A DNA stretch of 64,000 bases from Heliocybe sulcata (lineage: Eukaryota; Basidiomycota; Agaricomycetes; Gloeophyllales; Gloeophyllaceae), in contig ML213539.1 of NCBI GenBank assembly GCA_004369045.1, forward strand, positions 54,521 to 118,520. Reading direction: 5' to 3'. How positions within the stretch are numbered: the first letter of the stretch is position 1; each line of letters opens with the position of its first letter. Below, piece after piece: positions 2,086 through 37,436 of the stretch. Under the pieces are notes generated by a model. The model was given only the letters and a program-made list of their open reading frames with translations, had not been told where the DNA came from and ran no database searches. A program made the translations under genes and the position numbers.

Positions 2086-3458
2086 ATGCACGCCACTCAC
2101 GCTCTTTTCTACGCCGTTGCGGTGCTCTGCGCTGTCGCCAACGTCCATGCTGATTCTGCGAATCACGGCTCTCATCATCGCTCTCGAGTACACCGCCGAA
2201 TGGGCCGGGAGATCCAGCGCCGAGTGTCCTCGGCGCCTTTAGACGATCCGTCCGTTCCCAAGCGGATCATTCAAAGACGGTCCTGCGCACCGCGCGCTAA
2301 TAATGAGACTGCTGAATTGGCGCAATCGTCTCCATCATCGGTTATTATTAGCAGCAGTGCTGCTGCCACTGCGAGTGCGAGCATCCAAGAAAGCAGCTCT
2401 GCTAAGCCCTCTACTGCGTCGTCATCAGAGTCCACAAAGGCTTCGGCGACGTCGTCGGCTGCACCGAGCGCTACTAGCAAGGCATCAACCAACAATGCCA
2501 GCTCCAGCTCGGGCACAGGCGCGTGCGATCTCGCCCAGCTCTTCCCCGCCGGGCAGGGCGTGAAGCAATGGACCACCTGCTCCTCTTCCGACAGCGCTAT
2601 CTCATTGTCGGATGCGACATTGAAGCCGACCAACCTCCTCAAGCAGTTGACCCACAACTATGTTGCTGCCCCCGACTCGGTAGGAGACGCGATGCAGGCG
2701 CATTACCCCCAGGGGTCCTACATCCCCTCCAAGTCCCCTCGTGGAGGCCTTTCGTTCTATGCGTCTGGTCCATCTGACGTTGATCTGACCACGGCGAAGG
2801 AAGCGACCCTGGGTTATCGCGTGTATTTCCCCGATGGGTTCCAGTTCAACATGGGCGGCAAGCTACCCGGTATCTGTGAGTGATAGTCCCGGTTCCTGCA
2901 CACGAGAGTGATCTGACCATTCTTCCAGATGGCGGTAACAGCGCCTCGGCATCCATCTCCTGCTCCGGCGGCTCGCGCTCCGATGAGTGTATGTCCGCGC
3001 GGTTCATGTGGCGCACGGACGGTGCGGGTGAGATGTACACATACCTCCCGCCCTCGTACGACGCCAACAATGCGATCTGCTCCATTGCGCCCAAGAGCGA
3101 GTGTAATCCAACGTACGGCGCGTCCGTCGCGCGTGGCTCGTTTACGTTCGCTACGGGTGGCTGGACGACGATCGCTGAGCGCGTGAAGCTTAACGATGTC
3201 GGGCAGGAGAACGGCGAGCTCGAACTGTTCGCGAATGGCAAGAGCATGTTCAAGGTCGGCGGGCTTGTCCTGCGCAATTCGGATGCGGGCAGGCTCCGGG
3301 GAATCATGATGCAGACGTTCTTCGGAGGTATGGTCAGATTGTTGTTTGTTGGACGAAAGCTGACGACCTTCCTAGGTTCTACCACCGCTTGGGCGTCTCC
3401 CAAGGACCAGGACGTCTACTTTGCAGACTTCTCCGTTGCCATCACCGAGGCGCTCTAA
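2086..3458 (+). CDS. Secreted polysaccharide lyase family 14-like protein
   Basis: Exons 2086-2875, 2929-3327 and 3376-3458 give 423 residues. The start at 2086 is preferred over an in-frame ATG at 2014 because it yields a clean signal peptide (MHATHALFYAVAVLCAVANV, cleavage near residue 22). A Ser/Thr/Ala-rich linker follows (about residues 85-145), then a C-terminal domain with GGKLPGIYGG, SARFMWRTDGAGEMYTYLP and GIMMQTFFGGS, which match what I recall of fungal PL14 (glucuronan/alginate-type lyases). The enzyme would act outside the cell on acidic polysaccharide. The exact substrate cannot be read from sequence. The low-complexity linker resembles those that join wall or anchor modules. Confidence 0.85.
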
Positions 3459-4385
3459 TCTCCTCGTGCCCCTCCCGGCCTTCTCCCGGCCTTCTCCCCG
3501 GCACGAACGCACGCCGCATATGACACCAAGGCAACTACTAACCAGGATCAAGGATCATAGACTAACCATACTGACCCACCGCAATGGAGCAAACAATCCG
3601 ATACCCCACACCATATTATCTGTACATATTCATGCATTTACGGATTCATAGATGGGGGTTTGGTTCGCTTGCTGCGTTGTTTTCATTCTTTTGTATATCA
3701 TCGGTCCTTTCATGACATGCTACGCTCCTCTACGGGTTTAGAGTTAGTTGGGCGTAGGAATGCGCCGTGCGCACTGGGTTTCTGCTTCATGTATGTTGGT
3801 TGAAGAGACTGGTACTCTTTGCAATGCATCTGGGTTGTTTGCAGAAACTTGGATTATATGTGTGAAGCGGTCTATAGTGCAGCTGTGCGGGAACAATGCA
3901 CGCTGCGTCCCGCATATGCGTGACTAGTTGACCAATGGCGGTCCTGTCGAGTCGGACTCGCGGCGTTCTGCGACGTCATTATTCCGAGCTCGCCGTCCCT
4001 TCACGCTGCGCGAAGAGGGCGGGTCATGCCTAAGGGCAAAGTATGTATTGCAAGTAATGCCCACAGAGTTCGTGCAATACACTCGATAGCCGATGCTGCT
4101 AACCCGCAGGGAGCAAAGGCTATCGAATCCCACACTCGGGCAGCTGCATCATTATGCATCACGAGCGTCGGATACGATGCAAGCGAACACACGCTGAAGG
4201 GTTAGTGGGCTCTCTGCTAATGATACAAAGGGACCAAAGGTATTCGCGTCGCTGGACTGCTACTAGGTGGTGCTGCATTCGCTGCGCACGTTCATGATTC
4301 GGCTGAATGATTGAGGCGTGTGTCACCCTAGCACGGAGTATAGGTACGTTAGTAAACTGTTCGTAGGTAACAACAAAGGAATACT
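3459..4385. other. Intergenic, no gene seen
   Basis: Downstream of the lyase gene; no exon supported. The last part (about 4190-4385, minus sense) may continue copy A of the duplicated unit, because a branch-point-like CTAAC and acceptor of an intron lie there. Confidence 0.4.
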
Positions 4386-5236
4386 CACGGGCCCGCTTGC
4401 GCTTGAGGGGACATCTGACAAAACCATCATCAGCGACCACCCTCACCCAGGATACTAAGACGCAACGCACCTTGACTGTCCGAGCCCTTGCTCCGCCGAA
4501 GCGGCACACCACACCGCGCTTTGGTGGTAAAGATTGTCACCCACCCCCACTTACATCACGGGCCGTCTGCTCGCAGCTGCAATCCGCCTCTGCAAGGAGC
4601 CGGGAGCCGCCAATGGAGGTTTTGCAGGCTGCCCCTGTCGCAGGGTAGTGCGTCGGCGTAGAGCCTGTCACCCTTGTGGGCTGCCCTGTTAACGGAAGGT
4701 AGGCCGGCGCGCTGGGAGTCGAGACGAGGTCAGACTCGAGGGATTGGTGGGAGGATATGAACATACCATGTGGCGTGACTGACAGAGCATCGTGCTGAAA
4801 TCCTGATGCGGGAGCTAGAAAAGCTAGACACAGGCCGGGGAGGAAAGATCAGCAGCGTATCCTCCAGCACCCACCTACCGCAGCGTCAACAAGACCCAAC
4901 AGCTATAGCCAAAGTCAGTACGAGAGATCAATGGATGGAGAAGTGAAGCTGAGAGGGAGCTGAGGAGGCAAAGGCGGAGGACAAGTCGCGCTGGTGGTTG
5001 AGGAAGACGAACCACGCTTTATATAGACCGACGCGGCGGGGCTGACAGGCGGGTGACAGCTTATGTCATCGTCAGCCGCCTGTCGGAACGCGCTGGACGG
5101 TCGGCGGGTTTCGCGCCTATTTCCTATTTGGGCGGTGCGCCTGGTGTGCACGGACGATGCTGTCAGCCAGGCGGAAACTGCGGTAAACGCTCGCTGGTCA
5201 CAATATTCCTCTTTGCCATGGGCTACTGGAGGATCA
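4386..5236 (-). repeat. Duplicated gene-like unit, copy A (inverted relative to copy B)
   Basis: Read on the minus strand, this segment is closely similar to 19377-20220 on the plus strand. It carries a TATATAAA box (5018-5025), a CT-rich leader and several GT-AG intron-like segments, so it looks like a promoter plus a spliced transcript. The longest shared reading frame (4764-4537) codes 75 residues containing TPSAPAYLPLTGQPTR, GAACKTSIGGSRLLAEAD and CEQTARD. I do not recognise the product. It could be a small secreted protein gene, a non-coding transcript or part of an unrecognised element. Substitutions between copies fall in both exon-like and intron-like parts, so purifying selection is not evident. 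Confidence 0.6.
5018..5025 (-). promoter_or_regulatory. TATA box of copy A
   Basis: TATATAAA on the minus strand, followed about 25-30 nt later by a C/T-rich leader. The same arrangement is conserved in copy B at 19580-19587. Confidence 0.55.
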
Positions 5237-11621: not shown

Positions 11622-12561
11622 NNNNNNNNNNNNNNNNNNNNNNNNNNNNNNNNNNNNNNNNNNNNNNNNNNNNNNNNNNNNNNNNNNNNNNNNNNNNNNN
11701 NNNNNNNNNNNNNNNNNNNNNNNNNNNNNNNNNNNNNNNNNNNNNNNNNNNNNNNNNNNNNNNNNNNNNNNNNNNNNNNNNNNNNNNNNNNNNNNNNNNN
11801 NNNNNNNNNNNNNNNNNNNNNNNNNNNNNNNNNNNNNNNNNNNNNNNNNNNNNNNNNNNNNNNNNNNNNNNNNNNNNNNNNNNNNNNNNNNNNNNNNNNN
11901 NNNNNNNNNNNNNNNNNNNNNNNNNNNNNNNNNNNNNNNNNNNNNNNNNNNNNNNNNNNNNNNNNNNNNNNNNNNNNNNNNNNNNNNNNNNNNNNNNNNN
12001 NNNNNNNNNNNNNNNNNNNNNNNNNNNNNNNNNNNNNNNNNNNNNNNNNNNNNNNNNNNNNNNNNNNNNNNNNNNNNNNNNNNNNNNNNNNNNNNNNNNN
12101 NNNNNNNNNNNNNNNNNNNNNNNNNNNNNNNNNNNNNNNNNNNNNNNNNNNNNNNNNNNNNNNNNNNNNNNNNNNNNNNNNNNNNNNNNNNNNNNNNNNN
12201 NNNNNNNNNNNNNNNNNNNNNNNNNNNNNNNNNNNNNNNNNNNNNNNNNNNNNNNNNNNNNNNNNNNNNNNNNNNNNNNNNNNNNNNNNNNNNNNNNNNN
12301 NNNNNNNNNNNNNNNNNNNNNNNNNNNNNNNNNNNNNNNNNNNNNNNNNNNNNNNNNNNNNNNNNNNNNNNNNNNNNNNNNNNNNNNNNNNNNNNNNNNN
12401 NNNNNNNNNNNNNNNNNNNNNNNNNNNNNNNNNNNNNNNNNNNNNNNNNNNNNNNNNNNNNNNNNNNNNNNNNNNNNNNNNNNNNNNNNNNNNNNNNNNN
12501 NNNNNNNNNNNNNNNNNNNNNNNNNNNNNNNNNNNNNNNNNNNNNNNNNNNNNNNNNNNNN
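11622..12561. other. Assembly gap (940 N)
   Basis: A continuous run of N. Any reading frame drawn through it is meaningless. Confidence 1.
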
Positions 12562-14470: not shown

Positions 14471-14478
14471 TTAAGTTG
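14471..14478. repeat. 8-bp target-site duplication, left copy (TTAAGTTG)
   Basis: TTAAGTTG abuts the left end of the foldback element and is repeated exactly at 16650-16657 against its right end. Confidence 0.9.
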
Positions 14479-15473
14479 CACCTAGACGTCCCACACTTTA
14501 AGGCTTATTAGCCTGGGTCACACGCCCGCCGGTGCAGGCTAGTTAGCGTTAAACCTGCTGATTTGGCCTACCGGCGGATTTACCGGGGCCTGGTGGGGAC
14601 TTCGTAGCTACCAACTACCTGTTGTATATAGGGAGTACTGTATGCACTGACGTAGCGCCTCTGAATGGTGCCTCGGGCTAGTGTTCCATCCCCGCCACCG
14701 TCGGCATTCCCTCCCGGAAAGGCAGCCACGTGCGCGATGCAGTCCCGCCCTTCAGCGCTCAGCTTCGGCGTCGAGCTGTACCTATAATATCATCACGCTC
14801 GTTAGTTTCAATGGCAGGGTATTTTAATAGTTGTCTATGGTCGACTCCGGTGCTTCCGCAGCGTTGCTGCTTTGCCGGCAGTGCCGGCATAACCCGGTAT
14901 GGGCTGTGGGAAAAACATATGGATATGGAAAATGGTGGTAGAATGGCTCCTAGAAAATCGCAACAATGTCCAATAAATAGGAGGATACTTAGAGAGACTT
15001 TTGGTATATGCCTGTATACATTTGCAGCCCAATATCTCTCCAAGATTCCTACACCTTCCAGAATAAGTTTATCTTCATCCTCAGCTGCAGTAATAGTGAA
15101 TCGAAATTTGCGTCCCTCAGAAACATCCTGAACCGCTGATACTCTGTATTAACCATATTCTAACGCATCTCTACAGGTTTAATTAGTACCGCTGAGAATT
15201 ATATCCACTGCATCCCCAGATACCACCTCTGTATGGTACCCCTCCTGCTACTTATGCACGCACAAGGGGGTGTTATTTAAACAATATAACACTGGATACA
15301 GCATTCCCAGTTATATATAAGCCTTTGTTGGCCATCAAAATACTCCTGGGATATCCCCACGCTTCAATATGATACATGCCACTCATAGTGCCTATCACAG
15401 GTACACCTCCTGCCATAGGGATGGACCCACTGGGTTTGGTGGCATAAAAATATGGTACAATATTCTCATTTTA
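14479..15473 (+). repeat. Left arm of foldback element
   Basis: 995 bp, exact reverse complement of 15655-16649 wherever compared. The first mismatch at the inner edge is at 15474. Confidence 0.93.
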
Positions 15474-15654
15474 ACCATAGTTTATGCTCATAACTTGTCC
15501 GGTGAAATACCAGCCGTTGGTTGTACTGCTATGGCGATCGGCTGCCCTTATGGGATGGAGCTTAAATGCAGTACTCTGGAACACACTACCGGTACATGCT
15601 GGCACCAATAAAGAAAAATAACATCTGGGGCAAGTTATCATTATTGAGTATACA

Positions 15655-16649
15655 TAAAATGAGAATATTGTACCATATTTTTATGCCACCAAACCCAGTG
15701 GGTCCATCCCTATGGCAGGAGGTGTACCTGTGATAGGCACTATGAGTGGCATGTATCATATTGAAGCGTGGGGATATCCCAGGAGTATTTTGATGGCCAA
15801 CAAAGGCTTATATATAACTGGGAATGCTGTATCCAGTGTTATATTGTTTAAATAACACCCCCTTGTGCGTGCATAAGTAGCAGGAGGGGTACCATACAGA
15901 GGTGGTATCTGGGGATGCAGTGGATATAATTCTCAGCGGTACTAATTAAACCTGTAGAGATGCGTTAGAATATGGTTAATACAGAGTATCAGCGGTTCAG
16001 GATGTTTCTGAGGGACGCAAATTTCGATTCACTATTACTGCAGCTGAGGATGAAGATAAACTTATTCTGGAAGGTGTAGGAATCTTGGAGAGATATTGGG
16101 CTGCAAATGTATACAGGCATATACCAAAAGTCTCTCTAAGTATCCTCCTATTTATTGGACATTGTTGCGATTTTCTAGGAGCCATTCTACCACCATTTTC
16201 CATATCCATATGTTTTTCCCACAGCCCATACCGGGTTATGCCGGCACTGCCGGCAAAGCAGCAACGCTGCGGAAGCACCGGAGTCGACCATAGACAACTA
16301 TTAAAATACCCTGCCATTGAAACTAACGAGCGTGATGATATTATAGGTACAGCTCGACGCCGAAGCTGAGCGCTGAAGGGCGGGACTGCATCGCGCACGT
16401 GGCTGCCTTTCCGGGAGGGAATGCCGACGGTGGCGGGGATGGAACACTAGCCCGAGGCACCATTCAGAGGCGCTACGTCAGTGCATACAGTACTCCCTAT
16501 ATACAACAGGTAGTTGGTAGCTACGAAGTCCCCACCAGGCCCCGGTAAATCCGCCGGTAGGCCAAATCAGCAGGTTTAACGCTAACTAGCCTGCACCGGC
16601 GGGCGTGTGACCCAGGCTAATAAGCCTTAAAGTGTGGGACGTCTAGGTG
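15655..16649 (-). repeat. Right arm of foldback element
   Basis: 995 bp, mirror image of the left arm; ends with TCTAGGTG followed by the target duplication. Confidence 0.93.
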
Positions 16650-16657
16650 TTAAGTTG
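16650..16657. repeat. 8-bp target-site duplication, right copy (TTAAGTTG)
   Basis: Identical to 14471-14478. The insertion lies only about 50 bp upstream of the calcipressin start codon, so the element replaces or separates the native upstream region of that gene. Confidence 0.9.
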
Positions 16658-16707: not shown

Positions 16708-17548
16708 ATGACTTCAGGAATGTCCATCCGCATCCCCTCGCCGCCTTCCCCGCCGTCGCTGGAATCGTCGAGCTCGCGCTCCCCGTCGCCAAGCCCCAAC
16801 TCGCGCAGGACGAATACGCTGATTGTTACCCAACTTCCCCCCGCATTCTTCCATCCGATGGTCCTTAACACTCTGCGGGAACACTTTGCATCGTACGGCG
16901 AGATACACTCCTGGGCACCTATACGGGCGTTTGCGCGAGCGATCCTCGTCTATTACCGAGAGGATGACGCCGAGCAGGCCAAGTTAGAATGCGATGGTCT
17001 CGTAATTGAGGCCACGAAAGACAGGTGCGAATTGACATGTTATATGGAGCTGAACTTCTTAGCTGACATCTCTTGCGCCACACAGTCCAGAAACAGTGCT
17101 ACGGGTCTTCCGAGGAGACCCTATCCCACTTTCGCCCTTGTCCCCTTCAGCAAGCCAGGACGATACGACGTACCTCAAACCGCCGCCACTCGAAAAGAAC
17201 TTCCTCATCTCGCCACCAGGCTCCCCTCCAGTCGGTTGGGAACCACTTAAAGAAGAGCCACCTAACTCTGCTCCCCTCGCAGACGACCTTGTCGCTGCAC
17301 TGAAGAAACTACAGGTCCGGGAGAAGCGGTCGAGCATCGAGGTGCTCATCGAGCCCGAGGAATCTGGTGTGGGTGTGTACGTCGAGGACTGCTCTGGGGA
17401 CGAGGAAGAGGAGGAGATAGACGCGGAGGAGGATTGGGCATATGGAGAGACCGCCCCGTCTAGGGTGAAGTGGAAGCCGGTGCCGACCTCTCGCCCACAG
17501 ATGGGTCAGACTGCGAGGCCTCCCATGGCGGGGGTGGTTATGTCCTAA
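16708..17548 (+). CDS. RCN1: Calcipressin (regulator of calcineurin)
   Basis: Exons 16708-17024 and 17086-17548 give 259 residues. After a Ser/Pro-rich start comes an RRM-like domain (TNTLIVTQLPPAFF, LREHFASYGEIHSWAPI, RAILVYYREDDAEQAK, about residues 35-105), then ETVLRVFRGDPIP and the signature NFLISPPGSPPVGWEP, followed by LADDLVAALKKLQV and an acidic tail. Calcipressins bind and modulate the Ca2+/calmodulin phosphatase calcineurin through the ISPPxSPP and later motifs. All hallmark motifs are present, so it should be functional. The foldback transposon ends about 50 bp before the start codon, which may alter its expression. The symbol follows the yeast gene. Confidence 0.93.
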
Positions 17549-19376: not shown

Positions 19377-20220
19377 CCCGTGGCAAAGAGGAATGCTTCG
19401 GAACTCTAGCGACCAGATGTTCCTCAGTCTCTACCTGGCTGACAAGATGGTCCGTGCACACCAGGCGCACCGCCCAAATAGGAAATAGGCGCGAAACCCG
19501 CCGACCGTCCAGCGCGTTCTGACAGGCGGCTGACGATGACATAAGCTGTCACCCGCCTGTCAGCCCCGCCGCGTCGGTCTATATAAAGCGTGGTTCGTCG
19601 TCCTCAACCACCAGCGCGACTTGTCCTCCACCTTTGCCTCCTCAGCTCCCTCTCAGCTTCACTTCTTCATCCATTGATCTCTCGTACTGACTTTGGCTAT
19701 AGGTGTTGGGTCTTGTTGAGGCTGAGGTAGGTGGGTGTTGGAGGATACGCTGCTGATCTTTTTTCCCCCGTCTTTTGTGTCTAGCTTTTCTAGCTCCCGC
19801 TTCAGGATTTCAGCACGATGCACTGTTAGTCACGCCACATGGTATGTTCATATCCTCTCGCCAACAACCCCAGCCTCACCTCGACACCCAGCGCGCCGGC
19901 CTACCTTCCGTTAACAGGGCAGCCCACAAGGGTGATAGGCTCTACGCCGACGTACTACCCTGCGACAGGGGCAGCCTGCAAAACCTCCATTGGCGGCTCC
20001 CGGCTCCTTGCAGAAGCGGATTGCATCTGCGAGCAGACGGCCCGTGATGTAAGTGGGGGTGGGTGACAATCGCTACCACCCAAGCGCGGTGTGGTGTGCC
20101 GCTTCGGCGGAGCAAGGGCTCGGACAGTCAAGGTGAGTTGCGTCGTGGTATCCTGGGTGAGGGTGGTCGCTGATGATGGTGTTATTAGATGTCCCCTCAA
20201 GCGCAAGCGGGCCCGTGAGT
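19377..20220 (+). repeat. Duplicated gene-like unit, copy B
   Basis: Plus-strand counterpart of copy A (4386-5236, minus). It shares the TATA box, CT-rich leader, the 75-codon frame (19839-20066), and intron-like segments including one whose donor is GTGAGTA after GGGCCC and whose branch site CTAAC is kept in both copies (near 20250). Similarity fades in the next exon-like block after about 20280. The product is unknown. The two copies are about 14 kb apart in opposite orientation, with the gag-like ORF, gap and foldback element between them. Confidence 0.6.
19580..19587 (+). promoter_or_regulatory. TATA box of copy B
   Basis: TATATAAA preceded by a GC-rich stretch and followed by a C/T-rich leader, as in copy A. 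Confidence 0.55.
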
Positions 20221-20370
20221 AGTCCTATATTGCCTGCATATAAACAATATACTAACTCGCCTATACATTGTTCCCAGGGGGTTTCGAGCATTGCTCCAAT
20301 CCTTCAACGATACACAAAACTCCAGGGAGCGGTGCGTCGCGAGTCTGATCCTATTTCAGCTATCGCTAGG

Positions 20371-35218: not shown

Positions 35219-35410
35219 AGGGTTCGCCCTTGCGTTCGTGACGATAGAAGGGCAGCTGCATAATTGAGTGAATATATAGTTACAAGTGAAGATATGCAGG
35301 TCCCCGTCGCGAAGCTGGTAAGACGTCCTCTAGGGCACTGGTCCCTATGGCGCAGAGTTGTAGTGGCACGGTCGGGTGTTCGAACCCGGCCAAGGACCGC
35401 TCCTTTTCTC
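35219..35410 (+). repeat. tRNA-like unit, left copy of an inverted pair
   Basis: From about 35219 to 35410 the plus strand matches the minus strand of 35578-35790. The inner part (35340-35400) starts GGTCCCTATGGCGCAG, which resembles a tRNA 5' end and A box, continues to GGTGTTCGAACCCGG, which resembles a B box, and closes with GGACC and a TTTT run. It is only about 60 nt long and lacks an anticodon arm. It may be a tRNA-derived SINE head, a shortened tRNA relic or a pol III RNA gene. Confidence 0.5.
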
Positions 35411-35577
35411 CAGCAAGCATACTTAGTTCAGTGATCCTTTCGTCTTCGTTTCATGTCATCTCCAAATTCATTGTGTATACTGCACTGGACGAGCGAGTGA
35501 ACAGTGAATCACAATATAGAGAGAACTGATTGTACAGAATCTTTATCTGCCGACACGTCTTTGAGTTTTTGGCACCA

Positions 35578-35790
35578 AAAGTGCCGAAGCAAAAGAATCG
35601 TCCCTGCGACGGGTTCGAACACCCGACCGTGCCACTACAACTACGCGCCATAGGGACCAGACCCCTAGAGGACATCTTACCAGCTTCGCGACGGGGACCT
35701 GCATTTCTTATGGTTTCCATTGTGTATGTACTCAATCATGCACCTGGTCTTTTACCGTCACGAACGCAAGGGTTGTCGATAGACCCTATC
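35578..35790 (-). repeat. tRNA-like unit, right copy of an inverted pair
   Basis: Reverse-oriented partner of 35219-35410. The tRNA-like core is more complete at its ends here: GTCCCT pairs with AGGGAC. A-box-like and B-box-like elements and the trailing TTTT are kept. The shared flank includes CTTGCGTTCGTGACG and GCAGGTCCCCGTCGCGAAGC, so the duplication is larger than the RNA-like core. Confidence 0.5.
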
Positions 35791-35982
35791 TGGCTGGTTT
35801 CGCGCTGGTGCTTCTATGGCATGGGCATCAAGTTTCGCCTATGATTTTTACCGACCCCGAAGTCCTACGTGCCTCTTGCTATCAATGCCATAAACAGGGT
35901 CTTTGCCCGTAGTGAGTGGCATTGACGCGAAACGCGAAACCGTCACGTGCTCCTGCATCCGTGGAAAGAAGGCACAAGCTTG
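35791..35982. other. Intergenic, no gene seen
   Basis: Short spacer up to the transposon's left terminal repeat. Confidence 0.4.
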
Positions 35983-36851
35983 GTGGGTGCGCACAGGACC
36001 CCCGATAATAGGTATCGATGCCTGATCGCGGTCCGGACAAAAAATCGGTCGCCCAGACGCAAATGCCTGATTTTATCCGGACAAAACGGCCGAAAACTGC
36101 TTGAACGCCTGTTTCATTGTCCGGACAAATCGTGGCCATAATATAATGGCCTGATGCGCAGTCCGGACAAAGGCTTGTTGGTGCAGTCGGCAGGCGTATT
36201 GTTGTTATCGTGTTTGACCCGGTGACGCAAGGTTCGAATCTCACGTAGTGCATTTCTTTTTGTTGTTGGTGTCCCATTCAGATTTCTTTTCTATTTCATT
36301 CTTGAGTACTACGAGTCAGCTTATTATATAGTATGCTAAATTGATAATATTGACAATCAAAGTAGTCATATACAATATGAAAACAAGCTAGCAATAGCGC
36401 TGGGTAGCGTGCTTTCTGTGTATTCATGGACATCCGAACGTGTAGCTCACAAGTCCTAGCAGCCGTCACTGAGTTGGAGAAGTTACGCGCCCGCTATCGA
36501 TGAGCTGGGAACAAGGGTGGGGATGGTGGGCACGAGTAGCAGGATGGTTACCTAACGAGTGTATGTTTGATTATGGGCATATAAACCCGTTGCATCGCTC
36601 AGAGAACGCTAGAAATCACTTTTATAGACGATTTATAGCTTTTGAAACGCCTGATCCGAGAATCCGGACGGAAAACTGGGCTGAGGCCTAAGCCCGAAGT
36701 CCGGACAAATGGCCTCAAAATCTCGGACCCCTGATCTAATCCGGACAAAAACAGCCGATTTTTGGAAAATTTATCCGGACAAAATTCCAAAATTTTGGAA
36801 ATCCGGGATCAGGCATCGATACCTATTATCGGGGGTCCTGTGCGCACCCAC
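35983..36851. mobile_element. Non-autonomous DNA transposon (MITE-like) with ~45-bp TIRs
   Basis: The left end GTGGGTGCGCACAGGACCCC continues as an inverted match to the right end for about 45 bp (35983-36026 against 36808-36851). Just inside each end lie four copies of TCCGGAC, most continuing as AAA (near 36032, 36074, 36120, 36161 and 36661, 36702, 36741, 36774), all in one orientation on the plus strand. Such subterminal repeats commonly bind transposase. No transposase is encoded. A clear target duplication was not found; one-base length difference at the tips leaves the exact ends uncertain. Confidence 0.85.
36170..36250 (+). other. tRNA-like segment inside the MITE
   Basis: Contains TTGGTGCAGTCGGCAGGC (A-box-like), GGTTCGAATC (B-box-like) and a trailing TTTCTTTTT. 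The T stem does not pair and no acceptor stem closes, so it is not a working tRNA; it may be a tRNA relic or SINE fragment captured by the element. Confidence 0.35.
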
Positions 36852-37436
36852 AATGCTTCGCAAACTAGCCGTACCGGTGACCGAGCCCTGGCGACTCTCA
36901 CAGGACACCCCGTCTACCTCCGCATCATGGCTATGTATGTATTGGCATAGGCTCATTCAGGCCGGCGTGAGAGGACTTGACAGCATAGCTTCTTCATATG
37001 ATGATTCCGGACTGTTCTCTTTTCCCCGAGGCTCTGTCCAGCCAGAGGTCACCTGACGTCTGGCACTTTAAACGGGCCATGAAGAAGGTATGAATTCCAT
37101 ATCTACGTGTCTATCATGCACTGACCTGCTCAGCAGACGCTGGCATACGGCCGACATCTGCCTTATGAGAAATATCTATTATGGGATACATGGCCTCGAC
37201 GATTTCCCGCTGCAACATTACGACTTTCCCAAGTCAGCCAAGTACCGGAGACTCGCCCATGGGCTCTCCGGGCCGCATCCATCTGACCTGCTCCTGGGCC
37301 CGTTACGTCTAATACGGGGGTATACTCCTTCCGAACTCAAACGCTGGAAGACCCGACCTGGATACTCAATACTCAACACCTGTCTCCGACTGGCACGGTT
37401 TCGCACAAGGTCAAGAGAGACCGAGGTGCTACACCG
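36852..37436. other. Intergenic, cerato-platanin upstream region
   Basis: No gene supported. Confidence 0.4.

Follow-up and report, generated by a model that had tools for sequence, protein, structure and literature searches.

A probable KDZ/Zisupton-like palindromic transposon in Heliocybe sulcata, with evidence of concerted evolution of its arms

The window analyzed here, a 64,000-nucleotide stretch of the Heliocybe sulcata genome (C37:54521-118520; assembly of 31.6 Mb in 51 contigs), contains a palindrome of 2,171 bp (Table 1). Position x pairs with position 31128-x over 995 consecutive bases with 0 mismatches; inward of these perfect arms, 10 mismatches fall within the next 27 bases, such that the imperfect arms reach 1022 nt at 99% identity and leave 127 nt between them. 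The arms, their pairing, and the 181-bp core are as reported in a preliminary description of this DNA, which had also claimed an 8-bp target duplication: TTAAGTTG is present on both flanks, identical at 8/8 bases, supporting a transposon insertion. Among the seven inverted pairs of at least 40 nt listed by the repeat finder in the window, the 995-bp repeat is the longest (the second, at 359 nt, has arms 15 kb apart), and a perfect inverted repeat of this length is far beyond chance. No residual inverted symmetry was detected in the 127-bp center, where 406 of 500 shuffles scored at or above the observed value. The element is real and well bounded. Its insertion, with duplication of TTAAGTTG, lies 50 bp upstream of the start codon of a calcipressin-like gene (58 bp from the right end of the element itself to the ATG at 16708), matching the distance of about 50 bp given previously; the Pfam Calcipressin profile (PF04847) recognizes both reading-frame pieces of this gene (E=4e-7 and 7e-23).

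Table 1. The palindromic insertion and the adjacent gene, in window positions
Feature	Position	Strand	Details
Target-site duplication, left copy	14471..14478	.	TTAAGTTG
Palindrome, whole	14479..16649		2,171 bp
Left arm	14479..15473	+	begins CACCTAGACGTCC; pairs with 15655-16649 without a mismatch; imperfect symmetry to 15500
Core	15474..15654	.	181 bp, between the perfect arms
Spacer proper	15501-15627	.	without inverted symmetry; homologous to relatives' cores in fixed orientation
Right arm	15655..16649	-	ends GGACGTCTAGGTG; imperfect symmetry from 15628
Target-site duplication, right copy	16650..16657	.	TTAAGTTG
Calcipressin-like gene, outside the element	16708..17545	+	reading-frame pieces 16708-17247 and 17096-17545

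With arms occupying 995-1,022 bp on each side of a short middle, and with no transposase, the window element falls in the foldback structural class. Copies of the palindrome differ by single-base indels and by substitutions in all three codon phases, and a conserved reading frame is absent; a captured gene in the arms, whose frames looked protein-like, was rejected on these grounds. A head-to-head arrangement in which a smaller element is present twice was likewise rejected because the 12-bp terminal motif occurs within the window only at the two ends. The element returned no RNA family match at gathering score and no match in a plasmid collection, and a search of the assembly for an empty allele of the insertion placed the right flank at one position only.

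Several other repeats are present in the window. An inverted repeat of ~810 bp (93-95% alike; 4371-5183 on the plus strand and 19422-20232 on the minus strand, 14 kb apart) flanks the palindrome region and has two more copies in the genome, at C39:47572-48374 (93%) and C6:503956-504759 (82%). A foldback-like structure at 35227-35772 has inverted arms of 119 nt (89%) and 48 nt (83%) with a 183-nt middle, and a 56-nt inverted repeat (95%) at 35976-36858, its copies 771 nt apart, possibly marks the termini of a further small mobile element. A run of 940 N bases occupies 11622-12561.

The palindrome belongs to a family defined in this genome by CACCT...AGGTG ends. Its 13-bp end, CACCTAGACGTCC, has 45 exact matches, where its length would lead one to expect about one by chance. 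The preliminary description had proposed a search by the termini for relatives with a transposase and had named a lack of such relatives as grounds for abandoning its reading; the 45 exact ends remove that objection, and one pair of them, 9.16 kb apart, brackets a transposase domain. One-mismatch forms of the end pattern were mostly chance (96, against 70 for a reversed control), and single ends of this kind were not counted. Twenty-six convergent end pairs were checked, including those with the sister ends CACCTTAGGCAGG and CACCTGGGCTTCCC, and target duplications were found in 24 (23 at 8/8 bases, one at 7/8). The two pairs without duplication are L039 and L060 (C23:101094-101239), the latter a 146-bp pair that is perhaps a miniature derivative or chance; the ends of L057 differ at 13/90 positions. 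Not counted as elements were single ends with N on the other side (L013, L014, L015) and stretches without an end pair (L036, L037, L046, L048-L050, L052, L061-L072), and three convergent pairs lie outside the 26 (C3:1097025-1100846, C25:333609-335839, and C19:197438-199488). All genome match counts are lower bounds from one assembly.

Full size (2,059-2,330 bp) is reached by 18 of the 26 pairs, five of which are free of N. Each of the five is a palindrome, and arm identity ranges from 89 to 99.8%: L009, which is the window copy (99.0% over 1,022), L010 (99.1% over 1,020), L044 (99.8% over 1,042), L033 (96.7% over 1,023), and L034 (89.0% over 942 aligned positions). The other 13 contain N runs, most likely because the assembly is gapped at the palindrome. 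Arm values of 100% for N-filled copies count N against N and were not used, and putative asymmetric ancestors with short ends were discarded when their interiors turned out to be N runs. With 13/18 full-size copies gapped in this way, collapse of near-identical arms by the assembler could inflate arm identity. A stronger form of this concern is that the assembler mirrored a single arm to create the palindrome, as the N runs inside many relatives suggest that it struggled with such structures. However, the window copy has a perfect target duplication and gap-free sequence across its core; L010, likewise free of gaps, is independent of it, having a separate duplication and arms that differ slightly; and copies exist with arm differences of 4-11%. 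We therefore regard a mirrored assembly as very unlikely. Three shorter gap-free copies, L041 (1,064 bp), L042 (1,661 bp), and L045 (1,626 bp), retain one arm but only a portion of the second, so that inverted ends, perfect or nearly so, remain over 27, 601, and 662 bp, respectively; they look like decay products of the palindrome. No microhomology was evident by eye at these one-arm deletions.

Profile PF18758 (KDZ) has 21 matches in the genome, at about 11 loci, two of which are bracketed by ends of the palindrome family; the other nine lie outside such ends. The first bracketed locus, C29:105794-114955, is an element of 9,162 bp with the duplication CTAATTAC and inverted ends 97.5% alike over 284 bp. 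Its 13-bp ends are those of the window element, to which it is 69% identical across 131 terminal bases; against L044 the figure reaches as much as 80% across 108 bases. It carries PF18758 (1.1e-47 on one piece); a CxC1 match falls below cut-off (22.1 vs 26.9 bits). The second, C26:18959-27188, spans 8,230 bp with the duplication AGCGTACA and ends alike at 99/100 positions; these ends are 75-79% like the L033/L038 subfamily and bracket KDZ matches at C26:24741-25591. Both duplications are perfect at 8 bp. The window subfamily and a sister subfamily each share their ends with a KDZ-encoding element of the same genome, the C29 and the C26 element, respectively. Of the three end pairs longer than 5 kb that were checked, only the third, L058 (C27:334742-341876), has no KDZ match; it is an element of the 2.1-kb type with later insertions. 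L058 is otherwise palindromic, but its positions 1757-1898 (142 bp) are 94% like positions 3077-3218 of the C29 element. A comparison of the palindrome interior with the C29 element found no match, likeness being confined to the ends.

Because two longer elements with the ends of palindrome subfamilies bracket KDZ transposase matches, we read the window element as KDZ/Zisupton-like, and its 8/8 duplication is of the size seen in that superfamily. It would be moved in trans by a KDZ transposase recognizing the CACCT...AGGTG ends. Duplications of 8 bp are also the rule for hAT elements, and nine hAT dimerization-domain matches (PF05699) are listed in the genome, such that a hAT-type foldback element is a rival reading; yet all nine listed matches fall outside the ends of these families, in contrast to two KDZ loci, and a hAT affiliation has accordingly very little probability.

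Published accounts, as represented by the excerpts available, are consistent with the KDZ reading. Cryptococcus KDZ1-KDZ3 are described there as ~9.2-11 kb long, with inverted ends of 139-241 bp, a KDZ transposase with a CxC1 domain, and duplications of 8 bp in KDZ1 and 4-8 bp in KDZ2 and KDZ3 (PMC12810828), to which the C29 element (9.16 kb, 284-bp ends, 8-bp duplication) is a close match. Kyakuja families are given 7-bp duplications and no inverted ends in the excerpted text; the 8-bp duplication and inverted ends seen here point instead to Zisupton for the partner transposase (PMC12730594). Unlike the elements in these excerpts, the window element is only 2.17 kb long, consists almost entirely of a palindrome, and lacks a conserved reading frame. 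In the partial literature searched, non-autonomous KDZ members are little described and no report of palindromic ones was found.

The center of the palindrome may provide a record of descent separate from that of the arms. The window spacer aligns in fixed orientation with the cores of L010 (96%), of L034 and L035 (82%), and of L044 and L058 (67-69%), while the L033 core is 76-77% like it in either orientation. Across L009, L010, L034, L035, L044, and L058, a homologous core (67-96%) occupies the same place, so the palindrome center predates the divergence of the relatives compared. As judged by these alignments, the comparisons show a palindrome with a core older than that divergence and, in most of the relatives, arm changes of the two-arm kind. 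Independent change of the arms would put most differences between elements in one arm only. Between L009 and L010, its nearest relative, whose spacers are 97.6% alike, 54 sites in positions 1-995 changed identically in both arms, against single-arm changes at 0 sites in L009 and 3 in L010. Six other pairwise comparisons covered positions 410-995; two-arm changes against single-arm changes in the first and second element numbered 202 v 0 and 1 for L009/L044, 22 v 3 and 24 for L010/L033, and 63 v 22 and 71 for L033/L034 (plus 2 arm-aligned). When L009 was compared with L033 (26 v 0 and 24) or L034 (77 v 0 and 72), single-arm changes on the L033 or L034 side were about as many as two-arm changes, and single-arm changes dominate L034/L035 (28 v 54 and 27, plus about 18-19 crosswise or complex). 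By these counts, L009, L010, and L044 are strongly homogenized, L033 is so in part, and L034 and L035 are so only weakly.

A tree of the common interior places the two arms as sisters, with ultrafast bootstrap values of 93-100, in 7/11 elements (L009, L010, L038, L039, L042, L044, and L045); L035 has sister arms at a bootstrap of 56, the arms of L033, L034, and L058 are not sisters, and L051 was left out for having only 115 interior bases. Arms have probably been homogenized inside elements by gene conversion, with 4/11 elements not cleanly so. Near-identity of the arms is also seen in relatives 5-35% diverged from the window element, so the age of the insertion cannot be read from arm identity, and high identity need not mean a recent one. 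The preliminary description had held that the insertion must be recent or that the arms are kept alike by gene conversion; the two-arm changes, sister arms, and mosaic structure (below) favor the latter, and the alike-armed diverged relatives weigh against the necessity of the former.

Between subfamilies, the inner portion of the arm is common, but the outer ~410 bp are unrelated, on both arms. L033 is a mosaic: its outer ~450 bp are 94-100% like L038, its inner part is 86-100% like L009/L010 in most 50-bp steps, and the switch point is identical on both arms. One exchange would alter one arm, whereas the exchange in L033 is on both, which fits arm copying. An old core, renewed arms, and a mosaic on both arms are together explained by copying of one arm onto the other. 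These features could also be read as the same transposon giving rise to each palindrome recently and independently, by inverted duplication of half an asymmetric element (snap-back or template-switch repair) without continuing conversion. The perfect or nearly perfect arms of L009, L010, L039, L042, and L044 would follow, and the mosaic L033 could be a palindrome re-born from one recombinant arm. Such births are nonetheless hard to reconcile with the homologous core at the same place in six elements; no asymmetric full-size ancestor was seen among the five gap-free full-size copies, and L033 and L058 already have the appearance of intermediates whose core is common and whose arms are homogenized in part. 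We consider recent independent births improbable. It is in our judgment likely that the window element is a non-autonomous DNA transposon of foldback (palindromic) type with arms homogenized by copying, and that it belongs to the KDZ superfamily, where its inverted ends and 8-bp duplication make it Zisupton-like.

Under arm copying, joint arm changes would arise when one arm is copied onto the other by gene conversion, perhaps through template switching between arms while an excision gap is repaired from the sister copy; the core would escape because it has no inverted partner. Arm mismatches lie toward the center in L010 (5; mean relative position 0.90) and L033 (28; 0.84), and L009 has only 3, at the arm boundary. 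Central crowding is weak in L058 and absent in L044, L034, and L035. This distribution, in 3/7 elements, gives partial support, as a hint only, to copying from the ends inward; mismatches near the center are what end-inward repair after excision would leave, unlike pairing started at the center of an extruded cruciform. A doubtful but possible extension is that transposition itself keeps the palindrome perfect, through end-inward repair of excision gaps in which new strands copy either arm. With such excision-coupled copying, a moving palindrome would erase its own arm differences and spread new end segments to its two arms simultaneously, and descent would be recorded in the spacer only.

Long inverted arms with a short middle also characterize Drosophila FB foldback elements. 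To our knowledge, these have not been linked to a KDZ transposase. In the available portions of the literature, the closest precedent is Galileo, an element of the P superfamily in Drosophila mojavensis, with foldback-like non-autonomous copies, inverted ends of up to 1,260 bp that are 98-100% alike within a copy, and chimeric copies for which conversion and recombination were proposed (PMC3573991). The window family shares the long near-identical ends and the chimeric copies. Galileo, as excerpted, differs in superfamily (7-bp duplications) and host, has tandem repeats in its ends, and does not form a palindrome over its whole length with a conserved spacer at the center. Sex-chromosome palindromes, according to partial accounts, have arms kept near-identical by arm-to-arm gene conversion (PMC3723533, PMC8981503). 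Those are large, chromosomal, and gene-bearing in these accounts, whereas the family here is mobile, dispersed, and 2.2 kb in size.

Instability is expected of long perfect palindromes; a whole mobile family nevertheless has this form here. These data provide sequence-based evidence of concerted evolution of arms in a KDZ/Zisupton-like foldback family, which would add a foldback form to the KDZ superfamily. Given its position 50 bp from the calcipressin start, the window copy may influence that gene, and its transcript, as the preliminary description suggested, might fold into a hairpin and feed small-RNA silencing. Should arm copying be confirmed, the family would offer a natural set of replicates in which to study arm-to-arm gene conversion, made up of many dispersed palindromes that differ in age and each record descent in a spacer.
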